From positions 70,664 through 107,442 of the forward strand of contig CAJXJZ010000003.1 in assembly GCA_913055745.1 (NCBI GenBank): 36,779 nucleotides of DNA, read 5' to 3'. This DNA comes from an uncultured bacterium. GTDB lineage: Bacteria > Hydrothermota > Hydrothermia > UBA1063 > CAJXJZ01. Below, one piece after another: positions 1,392-35,371 of the stretch. Below the pieces are notes generated by a model. It was given only the letters and a program-made list of their open reading frames with translations. It had not been told where the DNA came from and did no database searches. The position numbers were made by a program, and so were the translations under genes. Every line of letters starts with the position of its first letter. Positions within the stretch are counted from its first letter, which is position 1.

Positions 1392-1392
1392 A

Positions 1393-2469: not shown

Positions 2470-2502
2470 TATTTAAAATAATATATAAAAAGGAGGGTAG
2501 TT

Positions 2503-3699: not shown

Positions 3700-3700
3700 A

Positions 3701-5212: not shown

Positions 5213-5213
5213 A

Positions 5214-6563
5214 ATGAGAAGGCAATATAAGGTACTGATTGTGGACGATGATAAGGCAATAGGTGAGGTCTTATCCGAATACATGCATAAAAAGGGGCTT
5301 ACAGCGTTCATAGAAACAGACCCGCGAAAGGTCTTGTCCAAGGTAGATACCATCCTACCTGATATAGTTTTTCTTGATGTTAGAATGCCCCATATTGATG
5401 GGATGGAACTTTTAAAAAAACTCAAAAAAGAAAAAGATATATACATAGTGATGATGACAGCATTTGCAACTATGGAACATATTATAAAATCCTTCAGAGA
5501 AGGTGTAGACGATTATCTCTTAAAGCCTTTTAAACTACAAGACCTTGATATTACTCTTAATAGGGCATTGAAAATAATAAAATTGCAGGATGCCTATAAT
5601 ACATTACAGGATGAAATAAAAACCATTCTTGAAGAAGAAATAATAACTCAGAACAACAAGATGCTCAAAATTCTTGAAGATGCAAGGAGAGTTGCCCCAC
5701 TTGATGTAACCATCATCATTTATGGTGAAAGCGGTACTGGAAAAGATCTTTTGGCCAGATACATTCATCAACATTCAAGAAGAAAGAATGGGCCATTTGT
5801 ACCTGTAAATCTCGGTGCTATACCACATGAACTTGCAGAAAGTGAACTCTTTGGGCATGAAAAAGGTGCATTTACTGGAGCAACAGAAAAAAGGGAAGGC
5901 CTTTTTAAGGCTGCAGAGGGGGGAACTATCTTCCTTGATGAAATTGGAGAGGCTTCTTTGTCCCTTCAGGTAAAACTCCTTAGAGTAATTGAGACAAGAA
6001 GGATACTCCCTGTAGGTTCTTCCAAAGAGATACCCACAGACGTTAGGATTATTGCCGCAACAAATAGAAAACTTGAAAAAGAGGTTAAAGAGGGTAATTT
6101 CAGGGAAGACCTCTTCTTTAGATTAAATACTGTTCCATTTTATTTGCCATCTCTTATAGATAGGAAGGACGATATTCCTCTTTTAGTGGAGTATTTTTTA
6201 AAAAAATCTTCAATCCAACATGGGATCTCGGAAAAAAGAATAAGCAAAGAGGCCTTATCCAAACTACTTTCTTACAACTGGCCAGGAAACATAAGGGAAC
6301 TTAAATATGTAATAGAAAGGGCTGTAATCTTATCAAAGGGGGATGTAATAAAAGAAGAGGATATCATCTTACATCCCATTGAGACGAAAAAGGAAGAAAA
6401 GAATATAGAAAAGATAAAACCCCTTTCAGAGATAGAGAAAGAGGTCATAAAGAAGGCTCTAAAAATATACAGGAATAAAAAAGAGGCTGCAAAAATGCTC
6501 GGCATTGACCCATCAACACTTTATAGAAAAATGAAAAAATATGGGATAAAGGAGGAACAATGA
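5214..6563 (+). CDS. pilR: PilR-like sigma-54-dependent response regulator
   Basis: NtrC-family transcription activator of 449 residues. The receiver domain (1-120) has the acidic pocket Asp11-13, phospho-acceptor Asp55 in FLDVRMP, and Lys104 in LKPF. The AAA+ domain has Walker A GESGTGKD (171-178) and the sigma-54-contacting loop GAFTGA (218-223), followed by FLDEIGE (Walker B region) and a sensor motif RIIAATN. A Fis-type helix-turn-helix closes the protein (KKEAAKMLGIDPSTLYRKMKK). The intact GAFTGA loop means the genome should encode RpoN. The start is one base after the kinase stop, so the pair is co-translated. The likely target is a pilin gene elsewhere; I found no convincing -24/-12 element in this window. 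Confidence 0.92.
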   Translation: MRRQYKVLIVDDDKAIGEVLSEYMHKKGLTAFIETDPRKVLSKVDTILPDIVFLDVRMPHIDGMELLKKLKKEKDIYIVMMTAFATMEHIIKSFREGVDDYLLKPFKLQDLDITLNRALKIIKLQDAYNTLQDEIKTILEEEIITQNNKMLKILEDARRVAPLDVTIIIYGESGTGKDLLARYIHQHSRRKNGPFVPVNLGAIPHELAESELFGHEKGAFTGATEKREGLFKAAEGGTIFLDEIGEASLSLQVKLLRVIETRRILPVGSSKEIPTDVRIIAATNRKLEKEVKEGNFREDLFFRLNTVPFYLPSLIDRKDDIPLLVEYFLKKSSIQHGISEKRISKEALSKLLSYNWPGNIRELKYVIERAVILSKGDVIKEEDIILHPIETKKEEKNIEKIKPLSEIEKEVIKKALKIYRNKKEAAKMLGIDPSTLYRKMKKYGIKEEQ

Positions 6564-18549: not shown

Positions 18550-19542
18550 CTACTGCCAGGTTTCCGCTTCCATCTGTGCTTTGTGAAGCGCTGAATCAGC
18601 ATCCATAATATCATAGATAGACATGGGAGCAGGATATGCAGCCGTTCCATCAAGCCATATATAGTCAAAGACAGAGTCACTAGGAGGCTTGGCATTCATA
18701 AACACGCTGGCTATTCTTACAAGGTCTCCTGCAATGGGTATTCTCTTTCTGTATTTTATCTTTGCTATTACAATCCACCCACCTACAGGGAAGGTATAAT
18801 GGTTATATGTATATTTACTATGGTTTCTATCAAAATGCTTGGGTTCCTCTCCATGATTAGGGTCTACAGGAGCACCGGTGAACTCATCCGAAAAACTATG
18901 TGGATACTTAACCCACCTGTTTTGATGGTCCTGTACTCTATCCCATCTCCAATACGCAGGGTGAACTGATGCCACTCCTCTTCTTACATTCTCTCTGGCG
19001 CCTCCACTTCTATCTCCATTATTGAAAGCATAGTAATTCCTATCACCATTGTTGTTATACGGTAATAATGCCTCTTGTGTTGCAACATAAGTAGGATTCA
19101 CCCTAACTTCCAGTTTAAAGTTGCTACTGTCTACCCTTAATCCACTTAGGCGTAAATATTTTTCCACTACATGTTGTGCCTGTTCTCTTCCTGATCTAAA
19201 GGCAACAGGCAAGTCAGCAGGGTCAATGAACTTCCATATGGTAGTATTTTTAAATAATTTTTTAGCGATACCGTAATTCACATTATAGAGAAATCCTGTT
19301 ATATTTTTCCCCAGAAAACCATTATTTAAAAGTCCACCATCAGGGCCGTATGGATAATACATGGCATTAGTAGGGTCGCTGAGTTTTGGATTTGCCACCT
19401 GTTGTGCAGCAATTCTCGCTGCCATCTCAAGTTTCATCTTCGTGTCTATATACTGACCCATTGCGTATATGCCAGCGAGAAAAACCACCAAAATAGGAAG
19501 CAAAATTACAAATTCTACAAGAATACTCCCACTTCTTTTCAT
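18550..19542 (-). CDS. tadE: Large TadE-like minor pilin
   Basis: A 330-residue protein with a TadE N terminus: basic MKRSG, then SILVEFVILLPILVVFLAG. Cleavage after Gly5 would leave Glu at +5, the type IV prepilin-like rule for TadV substrates. The typical EMAARIAAQQ stretch follows. TadE proteins are normally 150-200 residues. Here about 280 residues of polar, aromatic-rich, Asn/Tyr-rich sequence follow the helix and should sit outside the inner membrane. It probably caps or primes the Flp pilus. AGGAGGTG before ATG 19542 sets the start. It is last in the flp2 unit, just before the terminator. Confidence 0.82.
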   Translation of the reverse strand: MKRSGSILVEFVILLPILVVFLAGIYAMGQYIDTKMKLEMAARIAAQQVANPKLSDPTNAMYYPYGPDGGLLNNGFLGKNITGFLYNVNYGIAKKLFKNTTIWKFIDPADLPVAFRSGREQAQHVVEKYLRLSGLRVDSSNFKLEVRVNPTYVATQEALLPYNNNGDRNYYAFNNGDRSGGARENVRRGVASVHPAYWRWDRVQDHQNRWVKYPHSFSDEFTGAPVDPNHGEEPKHFDRNHSKYTYNHYTFPVGGWIVIAKIKYRKRIPIAGDLVRIASVFMNAKPPSDSVFDYIWLDGTAAYPAPMSIYDIMDADSALHKAQMEAETWQ

Positions 19543-19553
19543 TTTACACCTCC

Positions 19554-20654
19554 TTAGTGATGAGGTTTATTGTCTTGGTCCTGAACCACCCTTGTAATTG
19601 TCGGCCAGTACCAATTGAAATTACTCGATGGGGGCAACATCCCAAAATTTATATCAGGCCATATAGGCTTACCAAAGTATTGATCCTTCTCTCCCATAAT
19701 ACCAGAAATAGGAATTGAGAGCATAAAATTCGGTAGATGAGTAACATTATAGACATACACCTTGTTATCTTTAAAGGTTCTGGGTTGTGCTGCTGCTGTC
19801 GCATAAATATATCCAAGCCCTGGTGGAGTAATTTGAAAATTCCACTGATTTAACCAATTCATATTAATGAACTTTTCAAAAACAGTAGGAGCGAGATAAA
19901 CCCTCACTCTTGCAAAAAACCTCCCCAGTTTATCTGGTTGTAACTCCTGTTCATAGTTTACTTGAACATAATCACTATTACTGGAGTAATCTGGGAAATG
20001 ACTATTGGAAGGGTAGTTTATTCCCGACATCCATGGCATTATAAATGGATATTTCTTACTTGCCCCAAATAAAGCATTTGTAAGAGGTTTCCACAAATAT
20101 GGAAAGAGTGTTGGATCCTGCATTGCATCATCTAAATCAGGTACAGGATATAGGTTATAATTGACAACGTCTTTAATCCATTTGTCAAGGATGTATTTCC
20201 TTACAAGATTGGGCTGATATATACCACGGAACTTAACTGCTTTACTTTCATAAGATGCAAAAAACCTTGTAACACAGGCATCCTGAACATGGAAGGCATG
20301 ATGTGCCCTCTTCCATTCATCTTCAACTATCTTTTTCTCATCATTACGAACCATCCAATCCCTTTCGTGATAAACCTTTTTGAGCGCTTTTAAGAACATG
20401 GCATACTGCCATCTTGCCGCATTTTGAGCCATAGAGTCATAAATCTCCTCAAGTGCATAGTTGGTTGAGGCATTGTTACGCATATTACTGTAAACTATCT
20501 GCCCTGCCGCAGCTGCTGCATCTGCTGCATTCTGTGCCTTAATCTTGGCTACAGTAATCCTACCAGTTTCATAGATATATGAGAGAACGCCAAAGAGGAT
20601 GAATATAAGAAAAACCCCCATAACAAGTACAACACCTTTTCTATTATTACTCAT
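19554..20654 (-). CDS. tadG: TadG-like pilus assembly protein
   Basis: A 366-residue protein with one N-terminal membrane helix (residues 8-28) and then the Tad/TadG hallmark AQNAADAAAAAG (about 40-51). There is no von Willebrand factor A MIDAS motif, which longer TadG proteins carry. The rest is a secreted domain rich in Asn, Pro, Tyr and Trp. Position +5 after the Gly of NNRKG is not Glu, so it may not be processed like TadE. The frame is open to 20723, but ATG 20654 is preferred because AGGAGGTGTAAA precedes it and the longer version would overlap tadE by 59 bases. With the two TadE proteins it likely forms the pilus tip or initiation complex. Confidence 0.82.
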   Translation of the reverse strand: MSNNRKGVVLVMGVFLIFILFGVLSYIYETGRITVAKIKAQNAADAAAAAGQIVYSNMRNNASTNYALEEIYDSMAQNAARWQYAMFLKALKKVYHERDWMVRNDEKKIVEDEWKRAHHAFHVQDACVTRFFASYESKAVKFRGIYQPNLVRKYILDKWIKDVVNYNLYPVPDLDDAMQDPTLFPYLWKPLTNALFGASKKYPFIMPWMSGINYPSNSHFPDYSSNSDYVQVNYEQELQPDKLGRFFARVRVYLAPTVFEKFINMNWLNQWNFQITPPGLGYIYATAAAQPRTFKDNKVYVYNVTHLPNFMLSIPISGIMGEKDQYFGKPIWPDINFGMLPPSSNFNWYWPTITRVVQDQDNKPHH

Positions 20655-20664
20655 TTTACACCTC

Positions 20665-22017
20665 CTATCTTTGCTCATTACTACCTTCTCCCATCCAGTT
20701 GTGTTGTTCGTCTTTGGGATCATTTTGTGGAATAAGTTCAGCGTAATGTGCCATTCCAGATTGAGAACCCATACCCAATGCGTTCATTGACATACCACTT
20801 ACCTGATCAGGCCTATAATCTGGAACTCTATCCTCCCAACTAAAATGGTACCAGTCATCTTTTATATTCCAATAATCCGAGTAGTATGTTGCTGTGGCAT
20901 ATGACTCCGGTAATAAGGCAAGAGCCCATACAGCATTGTAAAAATTCCAGTAATTTCTTTTATTACTCCACATCCCACCACCTGCATGGGCATACACATA
21001 GTGCCGCACAGGAGTAAACTCACTTTTAGCACACCATATACAATGATGATGCCAGCCGTATACAGGGTGAGTACAAATTTCATGAGACTGGGCCCAGTAA
21101 AATGCCCCATCATCTTTTGACCATGCTCCTCCCATATCTGGGGTCCAAGAATTGGCGTAGTACTGTCCACCCCAACCAGTTGAACAACTCGGCCCAAATC
21201 TGTCCCAAGCAATGGGTGGTTTAGGAGAAGTTCCATAGCCCCAATAGTCTATCCTATCTTTTCCGTGCATAAAGCCTGTGTATTTTCTGGAAAGCCACTC
21301 ATCTTCTCCCCTACCAACTGGTGTGAAGCCAAACATCATATATGCATCAATCGCCTTCCTTGTATCTCTATCAAGATAGGCATACCACCAGAGCATCCCC
21401 ATCAAATTTAATTTAGCCGCTTCTAAAAAGGAGACGCCACCTACATTGACCTTTTCTGGATACCACTGCTTCATAAGAAAGCTTGAAAGCCCAGCACCAC
21501 TTGTACTCGTAACAACACCTTCTACCTTCGCCATTCCATTTCTAAAATCATTGTCAAATCCCTTTATTGCAGGCTCCCCATCATGAGTAGTTTGCCCTTT
21601 CCACTCATATGGAATATCTCTTGGATTAGAGTCTCCCATCTGAAAAGGAGCGACTGCTCTACTTACAAGGAAACTGTCCCATGGGACAAGCGCTACCGAC
21701 TTACTAACGTCATGTTCTATAGCAAGAAAATATACGCCAGAGGTATCATCCTGTTGTATTTCTTTCCTAACCGAGTTTTTTGTAACATTTCTGTAAAGGG
21801 TATGATATTCATCAAGGTGCTGACTTACTATGCTTGTATCAGGGGAATGCACCATCATAATCCTTGCGGTGTTATATGCGAGGAAGTTCATCTCAATCTG
21901 CCTTACAAAATATCTGGCAAAATCAAGTGTACCAAATAGTATAACGAGAATTATGGGGAGCGATATAACGGCTTCTACCAACATCTGCCCCTTCTTTTTA
22001 TCTTTTTCTTTTAACAT
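20665..22017 (-). CDS. tadE: Very large TadE-like minor pilin with His/Cys cluster
   Basis: A 450-residue protein with a TadE N terminus: KKKG then QMLVEAVISLPIILVILFG, with Glu at +5 after the predicted Gly10 cleavage site. This is more than twice the usual length. The roughly 400-residue exported domain is very rich in Trp and Tyr and holds a compact cluster CTHPVYGWHHHCIWC (residues 315-329, three Cys and four His), plus Cys278. This could bind metal or form disulfides. GAGGGGGTGATAGC sets ATG 22017, directly after flp3. The aromatic content suggests binding to carbohydrate or another surface, that is, a tip adhesin, but this is inference. Confidence 0.82.
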   Translation of the reverse strand: MLKEKDKKKGQMLVEAVISLPIILVILFGTLDFARYFVRQIEMNFLAYNTARIMMVHSPDTSIVSQHLDEYHTLYRNVTKNSVRKEIQQDDTSGVYFLAIEHDVSKSVALVPWDSFLVSRAVAPFQMGDSNPRDIPYEWKGQTTHDGEPAIKGFDNDFRNGMAKVEGVVTSTSGAGLSSFLMKQWYPEKVNVGGVSFLEAAKLNLMGMLWWYAYLDRDTRKAIDAYMMFGFTPVGRGEDEWLSRKYTGFMHGKDRIDYWGYGTSPKPPIAWDRFGPSCSTGWGGQYYANSWTPDMGGAWSKDDGAFYWAQSHEICTHPVYGWHHHCIWCAKSEFTPVRHYVYAHAGGGMWSNKRNYWNFYNAVWALALLPESYATATYYSDYWNIKDDWYHFSWEDRVPDYRPDQVSGMSMNALGMGSQSGMAHYAELIPQNDPKDEQHNWMGEGSNEQR

Positions 22018-24295: not shown

Positions 24296-25621
24296 TTATG
24301 CCTTTATAAAACCAACAATACCAAAACCACCAAGGTCCTGTATCTTTTCAAGTTCCACTGGGCTAATATTCTGAATTTCTATCATCTTCTCCAAACGCTC
24401 TAAAACTGTTTCATCAGGGTAGGCTCCAATATACAAAGCGCTCTTTAGTTCCCCACCAACGGTTACTATATTACCTGGCAATAAAGCATCACCTATATTG
24501 GGTGAATATCCTATAGGATTTGAGTCTAATACCGTAAACTGAGCCTCATTCTCATCCTTTATATCAGCAAAATAGTTCCTACCTATAGATGCAATCTTAT
24601 AATCTGTACCATTTTTGTTTATTTGAATAAGTACCATATTGAATTTTGGTCCTCTCAATGCAGCATAATCAAGATAGAGATACATCTGGTCCATTATGCT
24701 ATCAAAGTTCACTTCTTCTTTTATAGCGCGGAGTACGGCTTGATGGAGCATTACTGCCCCTAAATATGAGTCTGTAGTTTCCATAGGAGATGAAATAAAT
24801 CCATAGAGTATGTCAGAACCTCTTTCTTTCAGAAATGGTAACAAAACCATTCCATCTTTTGCGAAATGCTCGAACTCAAGATCCATAGAATTGTTAGGAG
24901 GAAACTGAATAGGTCTTGTTATTCCCTTTATAAGCGACAAATGCTCAAATGAATCTGATGTGGTAATTACAATTCGCTCCATGGTATCTTCTGGGTATAC
25001 ACTTCCTCCCTCTGCTCCAGCAACACCTATAGCAACTATGACTAATATAACAAAAAGTGCAATACCCGACCAGAGATAGATTTTCTTTTTAAGTGATGCA
25101 AATGCTGCATATTCTGATGGCCCAATAACACTCTCATCGGCTGCAAGATATATGCTACCAAGCCTTGCTTTAATACCTTCTGGCGTAATGGGAATCCCTA
25201 TTTGATAAAGGGTTTCACCTCCACTTTTGACCTTGCCAAAAGCGACCACAGTACCTGTTTGCCTAAGCCACGCCTCTTTGGGCCTAAAGTACTGGTCACG
25301 TGTAGTAAGACCTGCCTTACCCACTATTCTATCATTTTTGTCCACGACAACAGCATACTTTATACCCTTATAATTTTGAAGTACATTACCTAATTGCCAC
25401 GAAATACCTAACTCATCTCCGGCTGATAGAAGGTCCTTTACTGAAGAGGAAACTGTCTGGGCTATCATCATCATTCTATGTCTTATAGTATTGGATTTCC
25501 AGTTACGCTCATAGGAAGAAAGTGCTATATCCTCCATTACAATTGCCAAAATACCTACAATCAAAACAATAATAACAAAGAGTATAGTTAAACCTACTTT
25601 TGATTTTTTATTACCTGCCAT
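24296..25621 (-). CDS. Membrane protein with Cache-like sensor region and degenerate SpoIIE/PP2C-like domain
   Basis: A 441-residue protein with two membrane helices (about 9-29 and 180-200) flanking a 150-residue outside region that resembles a single Cache/PAS-like sensor (VLQNYKGIKYAVVVDKNDRIVG near 80-101). The cytoplasmic part (about 270-440) follows the order of SpoIIE/PP2C phosphatase strands: FNMVLIQINKNGTDYKIASIGRNYFADI, then NPIGYSPNIGDALLPGNIVTVGG. Active members have AGH and TDG at these places, and their Asp/Gly metal ligands are missing here, so activity is doubtful. It could be a pseudophosphatase that senses the envelope and signals to the adjacent ATPase. ATG 25621 has AGGAGATGAG upstream. 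The fold call is mine from pattern and moderately sure. Confidence 0.55.
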   Translation of the reverse strand: MAGNKKSKVGLTILFVIIVLIVGILAIVMEDIALSSYERNWKSNTIRHRMMMIAQTVSSSVKDLLSAGDELGISWQLGNVLQNYKGIKYAVVVDKNDRIVGKAGLTTRDQYFRPKEAWLRQTGTVVAFGKVKSGGETLYQIGIPITPEGIKARLGSIYLAADESVIGPSEYAAFASLKKKIYLWSGIALFVILVIVAIGVAGAEGGSVYPEDTMERIVITTSDSFEHLSLIKGITRPIQFPPNNSMDLEFEHFAKDGMVLLPFLKERGSDILYGFISSPMETTDSYLGAVMLHQAVLRAIKEEVNFDSIMDQMYLYLDYAALRGPKFNMVLIQINKNGTDYKIASIGRNYFADIKDENEAQFTVLDSNPIGYSPNIGDALLPGNIVTVGGELKSALYIGAYPDETVLERLEKMIEIQNISPVELEKIQDLGGFGIVGFIKA

Positions 25622-25636
25622 AACTCATCTCCTTTT

Positions 25637-27964
25637 TTACCTTTTAAATAAAAGATGTTGAATTTCTGGATCCGGATTAAATATTTCATTTGGCAATTTA
25701 ATGCCCCTATATTTAATTTCTTCAAGGGCCATAGGCCTTACCCCTGTAGCAGAGAACTTACCTAATACCTTGCCCTTATCATCATATCCTGTTTGTCTGA
25801 ATACAAATATGTCTTGCATTGTTATCATGTCTCCCTCCATACCAGTAATTTCTGATATAGAGACAACCTTCCTGCTTCCATCTCTCATTCTTGCAAGTTG
25901 CACAACAATATGAATAGCAGATGATATCTGCTGGCGTATTACTCTATCAGGAAGTTCCATCCCAGCCATCATGATCATGGTCTCCAATCTTGAGAGCGCA
26001 TCCCGAGTGCTATTAGCGTGAACTGTAGTCATGGAACCTTCATGGCCTGTATTCATTGCCTGCAACATGTCAAGGGCTTCAGGTCCACGACATTCTCCAA
26101 CGATTATCCTATCCGGTCTCATACGAAGCGTATTAATAACAAGGTCTCTAATTGTTACCTCACCTTTACCTTCAATATTTGGTGGCCTTGCTTCAAGTCT
26201 TACTACATGTTCTTGTTGTAACTGTAATTCTGCCGTATCTTCAACCGTAATAATACGTTCATCATTGGGAATATACCCTGAAAGAAGATTAAGAAATGTT
26301 GTCTTACCACTTCCTGTACCTCCTGAAATTAATATGTTTCTCTTTGCAATAACAACGGCTCTTAAAAATTCAAGTATCTCCTTTGTAACTGAACCCAAAG
26401 CAATAAGGTCTTCTGCTTGAAGTTTTTTCTTTGAGAACTTTCTTATGGTAACAGTAGGACCATTGAGTGCAAGAGGTGGTATAATCACATTTACACGTGA
26501 ACCATCAGGCAATCTGGCATCAGCGTATGGCATTGCTTCATCTACCCTCTTTCCAAGGGGAGAGAGAATTCTATCAATTATTACTAACAATTGATCTTCA
26601 TTCAAAAATTTTGCATCTGTTTTATAAATCTTTCCCTTCCTTTCTATATATATATCAAAGGGCCCATTCACCATAATCTCTGTTATATCTGGGTCTTTAA
26701 GGAGTGGCTCAAGTGGACCATAACCAAGTGCTTCATCAAGTATTTCCTGGACAAATCTCTTTCTATCACTAACATCGGTTATATTTATGTGCAATCTCTC
26801 CATGAGTTCTATAATCATAGACTCCACACGATTTCTAAGTTGCTCTCTACCTTTCTCATCTTTGAATACGCTCTGAACCTCAGACCAGTTAACCTCAACC
26901 ATCAAGGCACGGTGAATATCCTCCTTCCATTTATGCCACTGTTTTTCCTCAACTTGAAACTCCTCTTCTTCTACTTCTGCGCCTGCAAGGGTAGAGATTG
27001 TACTATCTACTTCCATAGGACCTCCGTCCTTAGGTACATTGGGGGTTGAGGATGCTGCGACATTATCTTCAGTCATAAGTTGAAGCGCTTCTTCCAAGGC
27101 CGAATCAAGATCAGTTGAAGAAGACGCCTTTTTCTTCGGTTCTTCTTTCTTTTTAGATTTTCCACCACCAAATAGAGAAAACTTCTTTTTCTTTTCACCT
27201 TTCAACTCTCTTATAAGGTCTTCTTCTGTAACTTCCCCTCTAATATAGGCAACCAACTTCTGTAAATTCTTTGTTGTTTGACTGCCACTATCCAATTCTA
27301 CATAAGGTACTCCTCTATCAAGCGCCTCCACAGCTTTCTCTCCGGCATATGGTATTTCAAGAAGAACCTTATAAGGATTAGAGAGTTTAATAATATCTTG
27401 AGTATCTATCGTAGAAACTTCATGAGTATGGTTTACAATGATTTTAACTTTTTCAGGTGGAAAGTACTGATGCTTTAAAATAGAAATCTTACCCTGAAAT
27501 GCATTAAAAGAATGCAGGTCATTGGAAAGTATAAATAGCACTTCATCTGTAAGTTCCAAGAGTTGAGCACTCAGAGGATTTAATTGATTTATTCCATCGA
27601 AAATAACGTACGAAAAATCAAAAGAGTGCAACATAGAAATAAAAGACATAATGGAGGCAGGGGTGACATTCACAAGTTTCCTGCGTGGTACTGGAGGAGA
27701 GGAAATTATCTTGAGTTTATTATTCTTTGGAAAAACACTAATATAATCTCCTAATTCAGGCTTTTCTCCTTTCTCTAATTCTTCCAATAAATTAGCAATA
27801 TCACCCTTTACATTAACATTTAGCGCCATAGCAATGTCTGCACGCTCAAGCTGCATATCTACAAGTACAATAGGCTGTTTTAATGCAATTAACACTCCCA
27901 CATTGGAGACTAAGAAAGTAGACCCAACTCCACCTTTACTCTGAAAAAATGCTATTTTCTTCAT
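25637..27964 (-). CDS. cpaF: TadZ/CpaE-like ATPase fused to CpaF/TadA secretion ATPase
   Basis: A 775-residue fusion in one uninterrupted frame. Residues 1-245 are a MinD/ParA-like ATPase of the CpaE/TadZ type: SKGGVGST (9-16, with the signature Lys10 and Ser in place of the second Lys, as usual in CpaE), [14 protein letters not shown] with Asp36, and VIFDGIN. There is no N-terminal receiver domain. Residues 250-345 are a Lys-rich then acidic linker. Residues 346-775 are CpaF/Tad[22 protein letters not shown], Walker A GGTGSGKT (548-555), EDTAELQL, Walker [16 protein letters not shown], and [13 protein letters not shown]. The ATPase drives Flp pilus assembly and TadZ places the machine at the pole. 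The fusion would fix them in 1:1 ratio. It is followed at four bases' distance upstream by the secretin gene. Confidence 0.93.
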
Positions 27965-27968
27965 AATA

Positions 27969-29354
27969 TCACATTTTCTTTACATTTTTGATAATATGTA
28001 GAACATTTTCATACTTGTCCCACATAATCTCGAGATTACTAAATATTTGTTTAAACACCTTTAATTCTACCATTAAATTACCAAAATAGTTTTCGACATA
28101 AATCTCATTGAGTTGCTGACCAACAAGCATAGACTGGGTATCATAGTTAATCCGTATTTTCTGTCCCTTATACTTAAACTGTATTTCATTCTCTCCTTTC
28201 TTGACCCTGCATCCAAGTAGTTTTGCAAGTTCACCAATTGGAACAAGTACAGTCTCCTCACGAAGGAGAAGAGGAAGTTCATAGGACTTTGATTCATACT
28301 TATCCCATATATAGACCATCGATTTGGATTTTGGCAAAATTACTGGAGTAACAAGGAATATAATCTCTGATTCTTCCTTAGTTGCTGTCTTTATACTAAA
28401 CAAAGATCCCAGAATAGGTATAGAAGAGAGGATAGGTATACCAGTCTTTTTATAACTTGTCTTAGAATTAATAAGTCCACCAAGACCCACTGTTTCACCT
28501 GAGCGAACCCTTACACTCGCATCAACGCTTTTTCGCCTTATGGCAGGTACTGTATACCCCTGTATCTGAACGGCATTTGCCCAGTCAAGTTCACTAACAT
28601 CAGGCTTGATGGAGAGATTAATATAGTTCTTAAGATCAATAGATGGGGTTATTTTAAGATTTACCCCATATTCTTTCCATTCTACCGCCACCTGCCCCAG
28701 ACCTGCAGGAATAGTCACAGGGAACTCACCACCGACAAAGAAGTTTGCGCTCTTGCCCTCCAGCGTAATAAGTGTGGGAGAAGATAGTATCCGAGCCTTT
28801 CCATTCTCCACAAGTGCCCTAAGTGTCATAGTTATAGGACTCTGTCTTTTTATTGGACCTACCTCAGTAAGCCCGGGTATGGGGATAGGGTCTTCTTGCA
28901 AATTCAGAGCATCCACCCATTGAACACCAAGGTCATTATGCGAGCTTTTATTCATCTCTATTACATATACCTTAACGCCAATGGTCCTCTTCCCCTGAGT
29001 TAAGATACTCTGGGGGTCTATCTTAATATTAAATTCAGATTCAAGGCCGTCTCTTGTCTTGACTATTAAATTTGTTGCACCACTCTTCTTAGGGACGAGA
29101 AGAAGTTCATCCGGTGATATTATATCAACGGTAACGAGATCTTCATCGCCTATTATGGCCCTTTTGAGCATCGGGATCTTCATAACATGAGAAAAACCTT
29201 CAACGAGACGTATAGTAGGGAGAGGGGCTTCCTCGCCCACCAAAGGCGTAGTCTCAGCAGTCCCGGTTTGTTCTACTCCCTCACTTATTTGAGGAATTCC
29301 CTCTTCAGGCAATTGAGACACCAATAGTCCCATTACTAACAGTATACTTATCAT
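27969..29354 (-). CDS. cpaC: Tad secretin CpaC/RcpA with C-terminal copper-amine-oxidase-N-like domain
   Basis: Outer-membrane pore for the Flp pilus, 461 residues. A signal peptide (1-13) is followed by the CpaC N-terminal domain (RLVEGFSHVMKIPMLKRAIIGDEDLVTV, with the LLVPKKSGATNLIV motif) and the secretin core: RALVENGKARILSSPTL near 179-195, VGGEFPVTIP, and the signature VRSGETVGLGGLI...PILGSLF (283-319), ending with IIFLVTPVI. The BON domain of some CpaC proteins is not seen. After the core, residues 358-455 form two half-repeats (REETVLVPIGELAKLLGCRV... and NLMVELKVFKQIFSN LEIMWDKYENVLHI) like the copper-amine-oxidase N-terminal/stalk-type domain found in many envelope proteins. The start lies within the end of the previous gene (four-base overlap). 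Confidence 0.92.
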   Translation of the reverse strand: MISILLVMGLLVSQLPEEGIPQISEGVEQTGTAETTPLVGEEAPLPTIRLVEGFSHVMKIPMLKRAIIGDEDLVTVDIISPDELLLVPKKSGATNLIVKTRDGLESEFNIKIDPQSILTQGKRTIGVKVYVIEMNKSSHNDLGVQWVDALNLQEDPIPIPGLTEVGPIKRQSPITMTLRALVENGKARILSSPTLITLEGKSANFFVGGEFPVTIPAGLGQVAVEWKEYGVNLKITPSIDLKNYINLSIKPDVSELDWANAVQIQGYTVPAIRRKSVDASVRVRSGETVGLGGLINSKTSYKKTGIPILSSIPILGSLFSIKTATKEESEIIFLVTPVILPKSKSMVYIWDKYESKSYELPLLLREETVLVPIGELAKLLGCRVKKGENEIQFKYKGQKIRINYDTQSMLVGQQLNEIYVENYFGNLMVELKVFKQIFSNLEIMWDKYENVLHIIKNVKKM

Positions 29355-30943
29355 CTGCCACCTCCCAGAGCTTTGATATAATAATTTGTTTTTGATAAAT
29401 AATACCTTGCTTCTGAATTTTTGGGATCTAAAGAAAGAACCCTTTCAAAAATGGTCTTTGCTTCCTGGTAATTTCCCTGATAAAATAGAGACTTACCTCT
29501 CGTCATGAGGGCCTTTATATCAACCTTTGGTTTCTGTCCCTTTTTTGTGGTTTTCCGCTTACGTGCCGCTTGTCTGGCTGCTGCCTGACTTGCCCTCCTC
29601 TGAGATTCAATAGCTTTAAGACGTGCATTTATTCTCTTTATAGCAAACTGTGTTTCCTGGTCGTTTGGATAAAGATCTTTTATAGCATTCCAGTATTTTA
29701 GTGCAGTATTATAACGACCAAGTTTCTCGGCCTGCCTTGCCCTCACTTTATAAAGTTTTACCAATCTATCTACACGTGCAAGGATCTGGGTATAAACACG
29801 ATTAACCTGCCTATCAGTTGAATCAATCGCCCTTGCAAGAACAATTTCATTATATGCATCTTTAAGCAGATTTCTCCTAAGTTTTTCCTTAGCATTCCTT
29901 ATATGAATCAATAGCTCTTTATATGCGCCACTCTGTTTTAATCTCAAACCAAAATTTATCCTCGGCATATCACCTGTAAGTTCTATTACCTTTTCCTTTG
30001 GGTCATACTTAGGCTTAGCCTCTACCACAATTGTATACTTTCCAGGTAAAAGATTGAATACGAAACTTCCATCTTTCCTTATTTTTACCTCTTTCCCCGT
30101 TTCTTTAACATAAGCCCTTCCAAATCCTACTGGCAGTCCTGTTTCACCGTCATAGATCTTTCCAAAGACCACCACTTCAACCTTTTTCTTTGCCTTCTTT
30201 TTCATTGGGGTAAGTAATCTTTCATATCTCAATCCAGCCTCAAAATAATCCACAGTAAAATAAGAAAAGGTATAGTCGGCATACTTAAAATTAACAAGTG
30301 CCTCAAGACCCGGCATAAATCTAATACCAAGACCAATATTCCTCTTTTTACTGGGCATAAAGCCCTCCCAATATATTCCAAGAGCATTAACGGGTCTTAA
30401 TTCCACTCCCCAGAACCCTCCAAGGGTTGCAGTCTCTGTATAATTCCATGCGAATTTACCAAGACCAACGCCACCCGTTATTGTAAGAAAATCACTTATA
30501 TGCCTGGTTAGACCAAGATAAAAGGGTATCCTTGATAAAGTTGATGCCGCAGAGTCACTCGGCGTTCCCTCAGATTGAAGTTTTCCATCCTTTATAAAAG
30601 CATCATCAAGTCCCAATGTAATGGACGGCAAATTGCCCTGTTCACGTAGAAAAGTGTACTTAAGGTTAATTAAAATTCCATAGTCTGCGGCATAACCCAG
30701 ACTACCTTGAAAGTTCCCCAAACCACCACCAAGCATTAAACCAAAACTGCCAGGGAAAACTCCTGTATAACGCTGAGATATACCATTCTTTTCAATTCTA
30801 CCAGCGGAGAATAAGCCCAAATCTATTACAGGCTTATCGCTTGAGAATGACACTCCAAGGGGTACTTCCATCATATCGCCGGGCTTAACACTTGCTGCCG
30901 CAAAACCCATCAAAACCAATAATCCTACAACAACCCTTTTCAT
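29351..30943 (-). CDS. Outer-membrane-type beta-rich protein with carboxypeptidase-regulatory-like domain and TPR
   Basis: A 530-residue exported protein. Signal peptide MKRVVVGLLVLMGFAAAS. Residues 20-255 are Gly/aromatic-rich strands resembling an outer-membrane barrel (LMLGGGLGNFQGSLGYAADYG, LGIYWEGFMP). Residues about 265-345 (VVVFGKIYDGETGLPVGFGRAYV ... GKYTIVVEA) match a carboxypeptidase-regulatory/PEGA-like beta sandwich. The remainder is helical with two or more TPRs; the last is SLFYQGNYQEAKTIFERVLSLDPKNSEARYYL near 488-519. No TadD is present elsewhere, so this may take the place of TadD and a secretin-assisting protein. The frame is open to 31012, but ATG 30943 with AAAAGGAGG gives a clean signal peptide and avoids overlap with tadC. 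Confidence 0.7.
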   Translation of the reverse strand: MKRVVVGLLVLMGFAAASVKPGDMMEVPLGVSFSSDKPVIDLGLFSAGRIEKNGISQRYTGVFPGSFGLMLGGGLGNFQGSLGYAADYGILINLKYTFLREQGNLPSITLGLDDAFIKDGKLQSEGTPSDSAASTLSRIPFYLGLTRHISDFLTITGGVGLGKFAWNYTETATLGGFWGVELRPVNALGIYWEGFMPSKKRNIGLGIRFMPGLEALVNFKYADYTFSYFTVDYFEAGLRYERLLTPMKKKAKKKVEVVVFGKIYDGETGLPVGFGRAYVKETGKEVKIRKDGSFVFNLLPGKYTIVVEAKPKYDPKEKVIELTGDMPRINFGLRLKQSGAYKELLIHIRNAKEKLRRNLLKDAYNEIVLARAIDSTDRQVNRVYTQILARVDRLVKLYKVRARQAEKLGRYNTALKYWNAIKDLYPNDQETQFAIKRINARLKAIESQRRASQAAARQAARKRKTTKKGQKPKVDIKALMTRGKSLFYQGNYQEAKTIFERVLSLDPKNSEARYYLSKTNYYIKALGGGR

Positions 30944-30962: not shown

Positions 30963-31892
30963 TCATTGATTCGGCCTAATGTTGTAAAGATAATTAAGTA
31001 AGATGGTGCCAAATATAACGAGAAAAATGGTAGGCAGAATCAAAAGAATCATAGGAAAGGTAATTTTAACAGGAGCCTTCTGCGCTTTTTCCTCGGCATT
31101 TTCCCATCTTTTGTTTCGTAAGTCATCTGCAACTGAACTTAACGTCTGTGAAATAGGTACACCAAGTTTTTCACCATACATTAACATGGATACCATTCTC
31201 TTTAAATCTTTATGTCCAGTTCTCTCTCCTATCCTCGCAAGCGCTTCCATTCTGGGAGAGCCAAGAAAGATTTCTTGAAGTGCTATTTCAAATTCATCCT
31301 TAATGGGGCCCTCTTTAAATCTTTTTGTGGTGAACTGAAATGCAGCGTTAGGCGCGAGCCCTGCCTTAACACTGGTAACAAGTTGATCAAGAAAATCAGG
31401 AAGTTGTTTATCAATCAACTCATGTCTGCGTTTTATTGCACTACTCAATGTAAAATCGGGGAGGAAAAAGCCCAGTAATCCGACAATTATACCCAAAATT
31501 ACAGACTTACCTAAAGGCTGTTTAAAAATCACATTAATTACAAGCGCACCAAGAATACCCAGAAAAACGAGACCTCCAAATTTCTGAGCAATAAACCTCC
31601 CCACTGATGTATCGTATTCTCCTGCCATGATTAACTTCTTCTCAATTGAGTCAAAGTACTTCGTAGGTAGTATATTTTTAAAAATTGGTTGAAACTTTTG
31701 CGATATAAAGAAGCCAACCCTTTCTGTAAAGCTCTCCATCTCAAAAGAAACAGCCTCACGTCTACGCAACGCAGTTCTCGCTCTCATTCTTTCAATTCTT
31801 TTCCTAACATCCACCTGGGTCTCTGATGGGATTAAGGCCAGCACTAAAAACATGATAAATCCAACGATACTTATAAATAGTAAGAATAGCAT
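30963..31892 (-). CDS. tadC: Tad inner-membrane platform protein TadC
   Basis: A 309-residue inner-membrane protein of the T2SSF/GspF family, Tad branch. Membrane segments are at about residues 3-23, 105-125, 130-150 and 280-305. The cytoplasmic F domain has the TadC motif LPDFLDQLVTSVKAGLAPNAA and the EIFLGSPRMEALARIGERTG and MYGEKLGVPISQTL segments. It forms the pilus platform with TadB, and is homologous to PilC in this same window. Overlap with the next gene is avoided if that gene starts at 30943. AGGTGAGGTGAT precedes ATG 31892. Confidence 0.94.
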   Translation of the reverse strand: MLFLLFISIVGFIMFLVLALIPSETQVDVRKRIERMRARTALRRREAVSFEMESFTERVGFFISQKFQPIFKNILPTKYFDSIEKKLIMAGEYDTSVGRFIAQKFGGLVFLGILGALVINVIFKQPLGKSVILGIIVGLLGFFLPDFTLSSAIKRRHELIDKQLPDFLDQLVTSVKAGLAPNAAFQFTTKRFKEGPIKDEFEIALQEIFLGSPRMEALARIGERTGHKDLKRMVSMLMYGEKLGVPISQTLSSVADDLRNKRWENAEEKAQKAPVKITFPMILLILPTIFLVIFGTILLNYLYNIRPNQ

Positions 31893-31905: not shown

Positions 31906-32754
31906 CTAATATTCAATTGTTATTATCTTCTTAATCCAGATAAATGCTATCACTATGAGAATAAAACATACTCCATTAATAAGTAATCCAAGCGGAGTTG
32001 ATATCATAGGACGGAAAAGGTCTCTCTGAGTAAGCCAAAGCATAAACTCAATGAAGAAGGGAAGCGCTGTTATCACATACGCAGAAAGCCTGCCCTCCGC
32101 TGTTAATGCCTGAATTCTTCTCTTAAGTTTCCTTCTAAGAGTGATAGTTTCAGCCACATGATTCAAAACCTCAGAAAGATTACCACCAGTTTGTAACTGT
32201 ATAACTACTGCCGAAGTAAAGGTTTTAAGACTTTCACTCTCAGGCACCTCCTCTTCAAGTTTTTTAAATGAATCTTTAAGTGTTCCACCCAGCCTAACAT
32301 CCCTTAGCATAGCCCTTATCTTATCTCTAAACGGGGGTTCTATCTGGTCAGCCACCAACTCAAGGCCTTGCATAAAACCAAGCCCTGCCTTGAGTGAGTT
32401 AGCCAAAAGATGTGTTGCATCTTCAAGTTGTCCTTCAAACAAGTCCAACCACTTTTCTCTCATGTTGTTCAAAAATGCACGAATACCAAAATAAGCAACA
32501 CCCTCAAGGAAAACCAGCATAATTATCTTATTGAGAATTGGACCAAAAGCCAAATAAACGAATACTGCAATTACTCCATAAACCAGAAGTTTGAAGTAGA
32601 AAATTTGTTCTTTTGTTTTAAAGAACAAAATATTTCCGGCCGGCGTTCCTGCTTCTTTCTTAACAACACCCGACAAGGACTGGAGCACTAAATAAACGAT
32701 TATAGCCCCTGTAAGGGAAGCCATAATAGCAACAACAAGGAGCATGCCATTCAT
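31906..32754 (-). CDS. tadB: Tad inner-membrane platform protein TadB
   Basis: A 282-residue T2SSF-family inner-membrane protein. Segments at about 3-25, 52-92 and two near the C terminus (228-278) bracket the cytoplasmic F domain with LEDATHLLANSLKAGLGFMQGLELVADQ and GGNLSEVLNHVAETITLRRKLKRRIQALTAEGRLSAYVI, a strong TadB signature. It works with TadC and the CpaF motor to add Flp pilins. AGAGGAGAGGTAAA before ATG 32754 decides the start. Thirteen bases separate it from tadC and 19 from cpaB, as in one operon. Confidence 0.94.
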   Translation of the reverse strand: MNGMLLVVAIMASLTGAIIVYLVLQSLSGVVKKEAGTPAGNILFFKTKEQIFYFKLLVYGVIAVFVYLAFGPILNKIIMLVFLEGVAYFGIRAFLNNMREKWLDLFEGQLEDATHLLANSLKAGLGFMQGLELVADQIEPPFRDKIRAMLRDVRLGGTLKDSFKKLEEEVPESESLKTFTSAVVIQLQTGGNLSEVLNHVAETITLRRKLKRRIQALTAEGRLSAYVITALPFFIEFMLWLTQRDLFRPMISTPLGLLINGVCFILIVIAFIWIKKIITIEY

Positions 32755-32773: not shown

Positions 32774-33853
32774 TTACTTTCCACACTTTCCACCAGGACA
32801 ACCAACCTTTTCAAGCAATTGCTTTATTTGATCGGGAGATACACCACCTGCACCTGCTCCTAATTGCATCTTAGAAAGGTTCTGACCGACCTGCTTCATG
32901 ATGGAGTTAATATCAACCCCACCAAGGGCAGAAGATAGACTACTACCACGGGCTGTCCCCTCACTTTTTATTTTATACACAGCACCTGTAGATGTTACCT
33001 TATAAACATCTCGCTTAATTCCACCATGCGAGCCACCATAAACCTCAATATATGTGTGAGTAATCCTTCTCCTGCGATAGGTTTTAAGTCCTAAATACTT
33101 TTTAAGCACATCATATGTATTCACTGCCTTAAGAGGTACATATTCTTTTTCACCTATAGGCTTTGGCACCACATAGAGGGTCGCTATCCTCTGAAGCAAA
33201 AGCAAGTCCTGTGCAGTATCAGGCGATACTGCAAAAGTAATTGTACTCGCACCTCCAGGAGCAGACAACTGCTCAAGTAAACTCTTTTTGCTTGATGAAG
33301 TAGCTGTTGTTACTGGCAATTTTTGTCCAACTGCTATAACAAGCATATTTTCAAATGGAACGATAACAGTGGGCTTTCTTACAACACCTCTCACATATTG
33401 ACTTACAAGGTCAGGTTCAAGCACGGCATAGAGATCAACAATATCTCCAGGTATTATAAGGCCCGCTGCACCTGTTAGCATATTAACATTAATGGTAACC
33501 GTCCTATATCCAGAAGGGATAAGTGCTGAAAGACCTCTAACCTGAGAAATATCAACAACAAAGTCAGACTGAATTTGTGTCCCTGCTTTTATTGGCACCA
33601 AAGACACTTTGCCTACAACGTCTTCTATACTCTTATAAGTTCCAGGCTGCAAGAACGCCCTTGGCACTTTACTGACTTCTACCATGTCTTGAGTAATAAC
33701 ACTACGAGCCGGTATGTCTGTGGCAGAAACTACAACCGTTTCCATCTCAAACCCTTTTAGTTTTCTGCTCTCAATACTCCGCAGATAGCTGATAGTGAAC
33801 ACGCCGGTTAAAACGGCGAAGAATAGCGCTACGAATAACAAACGCTTGTTCAT
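32774..33853 (-). CDS. cpaB: Flp pilus assembly protein CpaB/RcpC
   Basis: A 359-residue periplasmic protein anchored by one N-terminal helix (4-21). The SAF domain follows at about 38-105 (VVVSATDIPARSVITQDMVEVSKVP... VPIKAGTQI), then the RcpC domain with LSALIPSGYRTVTINVN and GLIIPGDIVDLYAV. CpaB/RcpC binds peptidoglycan-side parts and the secretin. The C terminus is extended by a Gly/Ser-rich linker and ends in CPGGKCGK, two Cys five apart, unusual for the family. AAGGAGGGTTTAA before ATG 33853 sets the start. The ATG overlaps the stop of tadV by four bases. Confidence 0.92.
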   Translation of the reverse strand: MNKRLLFVALFFAVLTGVFTISYLRSIESRKLKGFEMETVVVSATDIPARSVITQDMVEVSKVPRAFLQPGTYKSIEDVVGKVSLVPIKAGTQIQSDFVVDISQVRGLSALIPSGYRTVTINVNMLTGAAGLIIPGDIVDLYAVLEPDLVSQYVRGVVRKPTVIVPFENMLVIAVGQKLPVTTATSSSKKSLLEQLSAPGGASTITFAVSPDTAQDLLLLQRIATLYVVPKPIGEKEYVPLKAVNTYDVLKKYLGLKTYRRRRITHTYIEVYGGSHGGIKRDVYKVTSTGAVYKIKSEGTARGSSLSSALGGVDINSIMKQVGQNLSKMQLGAGAGGVSPDQIKQLLEKVGCPGGKCGK

Positions 33854-34452
33854 TTAAACCCTCCTTGTTCTATAATTAAATAAACGCTTATTACTATATT
33901 GGAAAAACCAAGAAAAACGCCATATCTTATTTTATTAAACGTGTTCTTTCTTCTGTTCTCTCCATCTTTCTCCATTTCATTCATAGGTATAAAGACGTTA
34001 TGTGTAATAGCAGATATTTTAAGGGATACAAACGCATTCTTTACCCAAGCCCAAATCACTTGAATAAGATCTTTTAATCCCTTTAGAACGAGCCTGCCAA
34101 TGCCCATTTTCTTCACCAGGGCATAAAGCAAAATTAAAATACCAGCACCCATAAAGGCAAGGAGTAAAAACCTCCCGCCTACAAGTGCGCCTGTAGCCAT
34201 AGCAAACTTAATATCTCCTGCCCCCATCCCACCTGATGCAAAAAATGGGAACATAATGACAAATCCTATCACAATGCCTGCTATGGAAGAAAGTATATGG
34301 TGCTGATACATAGCCATAATTATACCTATCAAAAGTACTGAAAAATTCAGCCAATTATAAATCTTACCATATCTGTAATCAGTGTACAATGCAATAAGGG
34401 AGACGATAGCAACTAATATATAGTTTATTTTATAAGACAGTGTATCCACCAT
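33850..34452 (-). CDS. tadV: Prepilin peptidase TadV/CpaA
   Basis: Aspartic membrane peptidase (A24A family, lacking the methylase domain of PilD) that matures Flp pilins and TadE-like minor pilins. The two active-site motifs are visible: TDYRYGKIYN with Asp25 and GMGAGDIK with Asp80. About five or six helices are predicted. The 200 residues are long because of a cytoplasmic C-terminal part. A GTG at 34473 would extend it by seven residues, but ATG 34452 overlaps the preceding stop (TAATG), pointing to translational coupling. No separate PilD lies in the window. Confidence 0.9.
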   Translation of the reverse strand: MVDTLSYKINYILVAIVSLIALYTDYRYGKIYNWLNFSVLLIGIIMAMYQHHILSSIAGIVIGFVIMFPFFASGGMGAGDIKFAMATGALVGGRFLLLAFMGAGILILLYALVKKMGIGRLVLKGLKDLIQVIWAWVKNAFVSLKISAITHNVFIPMNEMEKDGENRRKNTFNKIRYGVFLGFSNIVISVYLIIEQGGFK

Positions 34453-35030
34453 TATTGTTGAGTAATGTTCCACTTATAATATACCACAGTTGAATGTGGA
34501 ACATCCCATGTTATCTTATTACCTATTTCATCCTCACCCTCAAAATGTACCCTTTCCTGGAATGTAATTACGAGGGAATCAGGAAGGCCATTGAAATAGG
34601 GGAGCAAGGATCTTATGGCATGATCTATAACATCAAAAGAAACTGTATAAAGGTTTGCTGTTGCCTCATCTCCTGGTGGGACAAGGAGATTAAAACCTCC
34701 ATCCAATGGACCAAAGTCAAGTGTATCACCATAATTTGATGTTACAGATACATACTCTATTCTGTAATGCTGTATATCTGCCCATCTGCCTCCATACATC
34801 TCTTTAAAGGTAAATGCAACAGGCTGAGGGACCTCATATTCTACCCGAGACAAACTAAATCTTCCGCTGGTAGTATCATAAGCCACACTTGCCTGTACCA
34901 CTAAACTCTGATTTTCAGGGTCAACCTTTACAAGCCTTACCTCTGCTTTGGGGTAAAAAGGATTGTTATCACAACCTGATAGTACCAAAAACATCCCCAT
35001 CAGAAGAAAGGGAGCAATAAGTCTTTTCAT
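34452..35030 (-). CDS. Lipoprotein at the head of the tad operon
   Basis: A 192-residue lipoprotein of unknown family. Signal MKRLIAPFLLMGMFLVLSGC with a strong lipobox (Cys20). The mature part is beta-rich (VRLVKVDPENQSLVVQASVAYD) without known motifs. It is the first gene of the long tad unit, with AAAGGAGGAG before ATG 35030, and its stop overlaps the tadV start. The position fits an outer-membrane pilotin or secretin-assisting lipoprotein, a role unassigned in this locus. This is inferred from location only. Confidence 0.75.
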   Translation of the reverse strand: MKRLIAPFLLMGMFLVLSGCDNNPFYPKAEVRLVKVDPENQSLVVQASVAYDTTSGRFSLSRVEYEVPQPVAFTFKEMYGGRWADIQHYRIEYVSVTSNYGDTLDFGPLDGGFNLLVPPGDEATANLYTVSFDVIDHAIRSLLPYFNGLPDSLVITFQERVHFEGEDEIGNKITWDVPHSTVVYYKWNITQQ

Positions 35031-35082: not shown

Positions 35083-35090
35083 ATAAAAAT

Positions 35091-35121
35091 AAAAAAAGGA
35101 GGCGCGCACGCCTCCTTTTTT
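35091..35121. terminator. Intrinsic terminator after flp1
   Basis: AAAAAAAGGAGGCG (35091-35104), loop CGCA, CGCCTCCTTTTTT (35109-35121). On the minus strand this is GGAGGCG stem with long A and T tracts on both sides. It starts 15 bases after the flp1 stop and explains how flp1 is uncoupled from the rest of the tad genes, giving it its own expression level. Confidence 0.9.
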
Positions 35122-35135
35122 CAGATTTCTTTTCA

Positions 35136-35315
35136 CTATACGTTGGATGGATGAGCGACTGTCGAAAGGGAGTGGTACATTTCTCCTATAATCCGTGTAA
35201 CTTCTTTGCCCAGCTTCTGGAAAGCAATGAATGATACCAGGGCTATAAGCCCTACAATCATTGCATATTCCACTGCAGTTGCACCTTCTTCTTCTATAAT
35301 AAATCTCTTTAACAT
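35136..35315 (-). CDS. flp: Flp-type pilin (first copy, likely the major subunit)
   Basis: A 59-residue Flp pilin. Short leader MLKRFIIEEEG, processing site G/ATAVEYAMI (Glu +5, Tyr +6) and an even hydrophobic helix (VGLIALVSFIAF), then a short soluble tail. ATG 35315 follows AAAGGAGGTG; a GTG at 35336 is in frame, but the extension would translate the binding site itself. It has its own near-consensus promoter and its own terminator, the usual sign of the strongly expressed major pilin. Confidence 0.93.
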   Translation of the reverse strand: MLKRFIIEEEGATAVEYAMIVGLIALVSFIAFQKLGKEVTRIIGEMYHSLSTVAHPSNV

Positions 35316-35342
35316 AATAACACCTCCTTTTTTCACTCTTAT

Positions 35343-35371
35343 AATATAAACTTATCTAATGGTTTTGTCAA
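35343..35371 (-). promoter_or_regulatory. Sigma-70-type promoter of flp1
   Basis: On the minus strand, consensus TTGACA (35371-35366), 17-base spacer, TATATT (35348-35343). The expected start is near 35336, giving a leader of about 20 bases. It is one of the best consensus matches of the five promoters in the window and lacks the CGCCGAC element of the other two tad promoters. Confidence 0.8.

Follow-up and report, generated by a model that had tools for sequence, protein, structure and literature searches.

A Tad/CpaC-type secretin with a C-terminal stalk domain in candidate division WOR-3

Domain architecture of the secretin

The DNA analysed here (the window, 36,779 nucleotides in all) belongs to the genome of an uncultured bacterium of candidate division WOR-3 (NCBI phylum Caldifarciminota; assembly of 1.79 Mb in 63 contigs), and holds a full Tad pilus operon on its minus strand. 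The secretin gene of this operon is a single open reading frame encoding three domains: an N-terminal pilus domain, the secretin domain and a C-terminal stalk domain (Table 1). The corresponding frame of the plus strand at 27969-29354 is full of stops. By all sequence features tested, the protein is a Tad/CpaC secretin, and it is predicted to form an oligomeric outer-membrane channel. Its best solved sequence relatives are Tad and type II secretins, led by RcpA of Pseudomonas aeruginosa (E 1.6e-33), and all these matches stop at about residue 340-355 of the window protein. No BON match was found by Pfam between the pilus N-terminal and secretin domains of the window secretin; such a match is present in all eight non-WOR-3 secretins scanned in the same way.

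The C-terminal tail is a complete stalk domain

Pfam search of the window protein matched the region beyond the secretin domain to PF07833, with an E-value of 7.1e-5 and a score of 23.2 bits that just misses the curated cut-off of 24.2, whereas in the genome-wide search the same family scored 25.9 bits at the window secretin, above that cut-off. Among the isolated tails of the nine WOR-3 Tad secretins described below, eight matched PF07833 (best E 6.4e-9), those of one family, f4, with 32-36 bits. The ninth tail (G011/L036) has lost its first half to a run of N, and what is left aligns with the other tails, at 36% to the window tail.

The tail (residues 345-461) was folded alone from an alignment of six tail sequences, giving a model with a mean pLDDT of 93.2 and a pTM of 0.85. 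It contains two half-repeats, each of strand-strand-helix-strand-strand order, at about residues 363-395 and 420-455. Structural similarity search using Foldseek against solved structures placed E. coli copper amine oxidase at the top (E 0.016, probability 1.00), with no match reaching an E-value of 0.001. Superposition by VIA-align showed that the tail resembles the N-terminal domain D1 of this enzyme (its residues 6-81), with a Z-score of 8.9 and 2.3 Å over 72 residues. Other folds in the VIA-align comparison, among them 5h3k and frataxin, gave Z-scores of at most 5.2 and were not taken as kin. Since the sequence profile of the tail matched none of 177,635 distinct sequences of solved structures at E-values up to 10, the link to amine-oxidase D1 rests on Pfam and on the fold. 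Thus the tail shares its fold with D1 and PF07833, both by sequence profile and by structure, and is almost certainly a complete stalk domain. Unlike the E. coli enzyme, however, its host protein is an outer-membrane pore that has no amine-oxidase catalytic part, and no Pfam match to the catalytic copper/TPQ domain of amine oxidases was found in the window secretin.

The model of the full-length secretin is mediocre (pLDDT 69.1, pTM 0.44) and therefore supports the domain order only, although the same tail elements are visible in it. In a Foldseek search with this model, secretins fill the top of the list, which leaves the tail untouched by the comparison. The last barrel strand and the stalk domain are joined by a short linker (residues 343-352) of low model confidence. 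The first-pass annotation of the window, made from the sequence alone, had described a Tad secretin ending in a copper-amine-oxidase-N-like domain with two half-repeats. The PF07833 match and the D1 fold bear this out, the half-repeats lie at the places claimed, and the predicted structure of the tail is neither an ordinary secretin S-domain nor a disordered tail.

Conservation of the tail

The nine tail-bearing secretins fall into three families: f1, which includes the window secretin (four genomes), f4 (four genomes) and f5 (one genome). Within the genus of the window, the tail has a mean pairwise identity of 91.5%, compared to 79.3% for the secretin domain, whereas in f4 the order is reversed (73.1% against 79.0%). 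Between f1 and f4 the values are 18.3% for the tail and 40.4% for the secretin domain. The tail is thus strongly constrained within the genus, yet far drifted between families. To the nearest relative, the nonsynonymous divergence (dN) is 0.045 for the tail and 0.074 for the secretin domain; as synonymous sites are saturated, dN/dS could not be computed for either. Each of the nine Tad secretins of the class keeps the tail (the ninth being the one interrupted by the run of N), and within the window's genus no other part of the protein is as conserved, which argues that it is not there by chance.

Distribution of stalk-tailed secretins

Of the 40 genomes of the class, eight contain PF07833, with one match each, and every match lies inside a Tad secretin. 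PF07833 thus appears here as a part of the machine rather than as a general envelope module. Among the matches listed for the 147 genomes of the phylum, only nine secretins match the window protein end to end through the tail; the row of genome G136 reaches model position 403, but does so across two in-frame stops. In a tree of secretin cores (31 rows; L049 left out), the nine tail-bearing cores lie on one side of a branch with a support of 93/98, and this is consistent with a single acquisition of the tail.

Outside WOR-3, Tad secretins of Zixibacteria are among the closest. A search of 132 Zixibacteria genomes gave 12 close CpaC-like secretins, none of which matches past position 348 or carries a stalk tail; all 12 end in short, low-complexity tails of 11-69 residues after the match. 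The row of genome G192 reaches position 407 only through five stops. In a sample of 28 loci, five were from WOR-3, and the C-terminus was read in the other 23, although L042, L044 and L059 were not cleanly readable because of the frame or the contig end. No stalk tail was seen at the C-termini of these 23 loci, and PF07833 was found in none of the eight secretin reading frames among them that were scanned with Pfam. The family occurs somewhere in seven of the 20 genomes of non-WOR-3 loci that were searched.

Bacillota were surveyed in two overlapping draws of 398 and 299 genomes at an E-value cut of 1e-30, with some candidates per genome scored. PF07833 was absent from the ten secretin loci scanned with Pfam, of 12 taken, and the Bacillota secretins with long matches or frames have other tails or none. 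One of them (L116:1252-2811, minus strand, genome G470) ends in two LysM domains (E 7e-19) and is possibly self-anchoring. Like the window secretin, it carries a folded extra domain at the C-terminal place, but this is LysM combined with an N-terminus of STN/Secretin_N type, instead of a stalk domain combined with a Tad-type N-terminus. Another secretin frame (L127:325-3492, genome G459) has a C-terminal extension of about 190 residues without a Pfam match.

The lack of stalk-tailed secretins outside WOR-3 is a statement on the genomes sampled. Within these, the initial expectation that such a domain would be foreign to the end of CpaC/RcpA holds everywhere outside WOR-3, and the search for the same architecture among CpaC homologues ended with the nine WOR-3 Tad secretins. 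A literature search, with most subscription papers outside its reach, found no description of a secretin with a PF07833 domain; in a Veillonella paper, a copper-amine-oxidase-domain protein and a secretin are named as separate proteins.

The Tad operon and its surroundings

Table 1. Genes and domains of the Tad operon in the window
Feature	Coordinates	Strand	Evidence or remark
Flp pilin	35136..35336	minus	PF04964, E 3.5e-9
192-residue protein, lipobox-like LSGC, second candidate pilotin	34452..35030	minus	sequence read directly; no Pfam match
Prepilin peptidase A24	33850..34473	minus	Pfam
CpaB/RcpC	32774..33853	minus	TIGR03177 above cut-off
T2SSF (TadB/TadC type) membrane platform	31906..32754	minus	Pfam
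T2SSF (TadB/TadC type) membrane platform	30963..31892	minus	Pfam
Upstream partner, 530 residues from likely ATG: signal peptide, barrel-like region, CarboxypepD_reg-like domain, TPR	29351..30943	minus	4-base overlap with secretin start
Partner, barrel-like region	30281..30742	minus	weak OMP_b-brl match, E 0.013, below cut-off
Partner, CarboxypepD_reg-like domain	29948..30169	minus	E 0.001, below cut-off
Partner, TPR repeat	29417..29515	minus	Pfam; aligns with separate TadD-like TPR gene of f4
Tad/CpaC-type secretin with C-terminal stalk domain	27969..29354	minus	single open reading frame, 461 residues
Secretin, T2SS-T3SS_pil_N domain PF13629 (residues 47-109)	29028..29216	minus	Pfam, E 4e-9
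Secretin, Secretin domain PF00263 (residues 180-340)	28335..28817	minus	Pfam, E 1.4e-43
Secretin, stalk domain PF07833 Cu_amine_oxidN1 (residues 359-453)	27996..28280	minus	Pfam and fold comparison
ParA/MinD-like and TadA ATPase in one protein (TadZ-TadA type fusion)	25637..27964	minus	profile matches
Membrane protein, family unassigned	24296..25621	minus	no Pfam match at E 0.05
TadE-like protein	20665..22017	minus	Pfam
Tad/TadG-like protein	19554..20723	minus	Pfam
TadE-like protein (second)	18550..19542	minus	Pfam

The genes of the operon are listed in Table 1. On the fusion ATPase, the TadA model TIGR03819 scores 334 bits, below its curated cut-off of 373; the long form that joins a ParA/MinD-like (TadZ-like) part to TadA is also present in the relatives L036, L037, L098-L101 and L103. 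Within 35090-35371 (minus strand), the Flp pilin gene is preceded by the best sigma-70-like site of the region (TTGACA, a spacing of 17, TATATT) and followed by a strong terminator-like hairpin, which suggests that the major pilin is made in excess over the remaining operon. At a similar place, the window (24296-25621, P0003) and an f4 locus (L037:15952-17229) each encode a membrane protein for which Pfam gave nothing at E 0.05; comparison of the two proteins yielded no match (E 0.15). The f4 Tad operon also encodes an 857-residue beta-propeller-like protein (L037:17234-19807, L098:16268-18841 and L100:976-3549), which has no match among the open reading frames of the window. Beside the Tad operon, positions 246-6563 on the plus strand of the window encode two ATPases of the T2SSE family and one T2SSF protein; genes for a histidine kinase and a sigma-54 response regulator come next. 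The window thus also contains pilus-type genes that belong to a second locus.

The upstream partner gene and its counterparts

The gene upstream of the secretin overlaps its start by four bases in eight of the nine loci and abuts it in the ninth. In the window it encodes a fusion that ends in a tetratricopeptide repeat (TPR); all four genomes of the genus retain this protein (76-82% identity). Direct reading of the four f1 proteins found no Cys after the signal sequence, and hence no lipoprotein signal. Each of the four f4 genomes has at the corresponding place a gene, again with the four-base overlap, for a protein of 125-145 residues with a CarboxypepD-like domain and an invariant Cys at a lipobox-like site; there the TPR protein is encoded separately, behind the T2SSF pair. 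In f5, a TPR-ended protein directly precedes the secretin without overlap. The TPR part of the f1 fusion aligns with the separate f4 protein at an hhalign probability of 95.7. The small f4 proteins match CarboxypepD families with a best E-value of about 1e-5, below the curated cut-off, and the window fusion matches the same families with an E-value of 0.001.

Comparison with known Tad secretins

The C-terminal tail of P. aeruginosa RcpA forms a random coil, the last four residues of which bind the TPR lipoprotein TadD; TadD packs around the periphery of the secretin, outside the lumen, and is required for pore assembly (PMC10499894). In Caulobacter crescentus, the Tad secretin is linked to peptidoglycan, the OmpA-like lipoprotein CpaD, a predicted peptidoglycan binder, was fitted as spokes wrapping the barrel, and CpaO, the counterpart of TadD, is not essential (PMC13170226). 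The N-domain of RcpA binds RcpC, and according to the same paper the Tad pilus has no known peptidoglycan hydrolase (PMC12307814).

Similar to the RcpA-TadD complex (8odn), the window system has a Tad secretin fold, an extra C-terminal segment past the barrel and a TPR protein in the operon. However, its tail is a folded stalk domain instead of a coil, and its TPR part is fused to other domains. As in CpaC-CpaD, a Tad secretin is combined with an accessory element for which wrapping of the barrel rim is proposed (PMC13170226), but CpaD is a separate OmpA-like lipoprotein, whereas the extra domain of the window lies in the secretin chain and has another fold.

Proposed role of the stalk domain

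By analogy with these systems, we tentatively propose that the stalk domains form a collar that docks a co-encoded, outer-membrane-anchored partner; as a whole, this mechanism seems quite possible, if somewhat short of probable. After the last barrel strand, the chain would leave on the periplasmic side, as in RcpA, so that about a dozen stalk domains may surround the lower pore rim directly beneath the outer membrane. A collar is suggested because the stalk domain leaves the barrel at the place corresponding to the position of TadD or CpaD, and it would be built into the secretin where TadD sits in P. aeruginosa or CpaD in C. crescentus. Of the roles considered, this collar would most likely offer a docking surface to a partner that delivers the secretin to the membrane and keeps it there, much as a pilotin does. 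The upstream gene encodes the prime candidate for this partner, namely the barrel-like/CarboxypepD/TPR fusion in f1, and the small CarboxypepD-like lipoprotein together with the separate TPR protein in f4. Topological statements that go beyond the cited papers are ones that we infer.

Other roles have been weighed against the docking collar. Among the three that the first-pass annotation put forward (gate, peptidoglycan anchor, pilotin-like signal), the anchor and the pilotin-type docking are both possible, and we prefer the latter. The main rival holds that the stalk domains bind the cell wall and pin the pore against the forces of pilus extension and retraction, as a one-chain version of the role proposed for CpaD. 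Such an anchor would agree with the peptidoglycan link of the Caulobacter Tad secretin and its wrapping by CpaD (PMC13170226), and also with the L116 secretin, which lacks the Tad-type N-terminal domain and has two LysM domains at the same C-terminal position. Against it, PF07833 occurs in no other protein of the class (8/40 genomes, one match each), giving no sign of a general wall-binding module, and the accessible portions of the literature yielded no test of wall binding by PF07833; we regard an anchor as a serious but rather unlikely alternative. Alternatively, adjacent stalk domains may pack together round the barrel and hold the oligomer. Their place right after the last barrel strand, behind the short linker, would suit this arrangement, as would the fact that the domain is highly conserved over its whole length in the genus, but in f4 conservation falls to 73%, under that of the secretin domain, and the stalk-stalk interface is purely hypothetical; we consider ring stabilisation improbable.

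That the stalk domain is merely a passenger of a neutral fusion, without a role of its own, would fit the low identity between f1 and f4 tails. This explanation is already disfavoured and looks very improbable, as none of the nine Tad secretins of the class lacks the tail, and within the genus it has diverged less than the secretin domain has (dN 0.045 against 0.074). The first-pass annotation had also suggested a gate, and a channel gate or plug at the pore is extremely improbable: nothing specific was found in its favour, and the tail of the solved Tad secretin passes along the outside of the barrel towards the peripheral TadD ring, not into the lumen (PMC10499894). We reject this role on topology.

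Several observations weigh against the docking collar itself. The CarboxypepD-like domains of f1 and f4 align with hhalign probabilities of only 4.6 and 3.6, and their tails with 16.6, none of which is convincing. Because of this poor alignment, the tails of f1 and f4 are both assigned as stalk domains on separate PF07833 matches, and it is on family-level matches that a common partner, or even a common origin of the tails, depends. The barrel call of the f1 partner is weak (E 0.013), and contact between the stalk domain and the partner is something we infer. Moreover, the docking part of RcpA is a four-residue peptide, so that, by comparison, a folded domain is not needed for docking. Finally, the lipoprotein-like protein at 34452-35030, instead of the upstream partner, could be the pilotin.

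Implications

The stalk tail on a Tad secretin is a new variation on a known machine, with a mechanism that is proposed here. In its widest form, which we consider distinctly doubtful, the docking collar would make this a self-collared Tad secretin, in which the stalk domain replaces the separate rim proteins (TadD or CpaD). The anchor of the partner would then be its own barrel in the window's genus and, in f4, the lipid of a separate protein of CarboxypepD type, and pilotin function would have been rebuilt by domain shuffling at least once in one phylum.

How secretins reach the outer membrane and stay there differs by lineage, and even the two Tad models studied do not have the same rim partner. 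A pore with a folded rim domain in its own chain is a compact and testable case of a job moving from one protein to another. It would also assign the PF07833 family, widespread yet obscure in function, to a definite position within a machine whose architecture is known.
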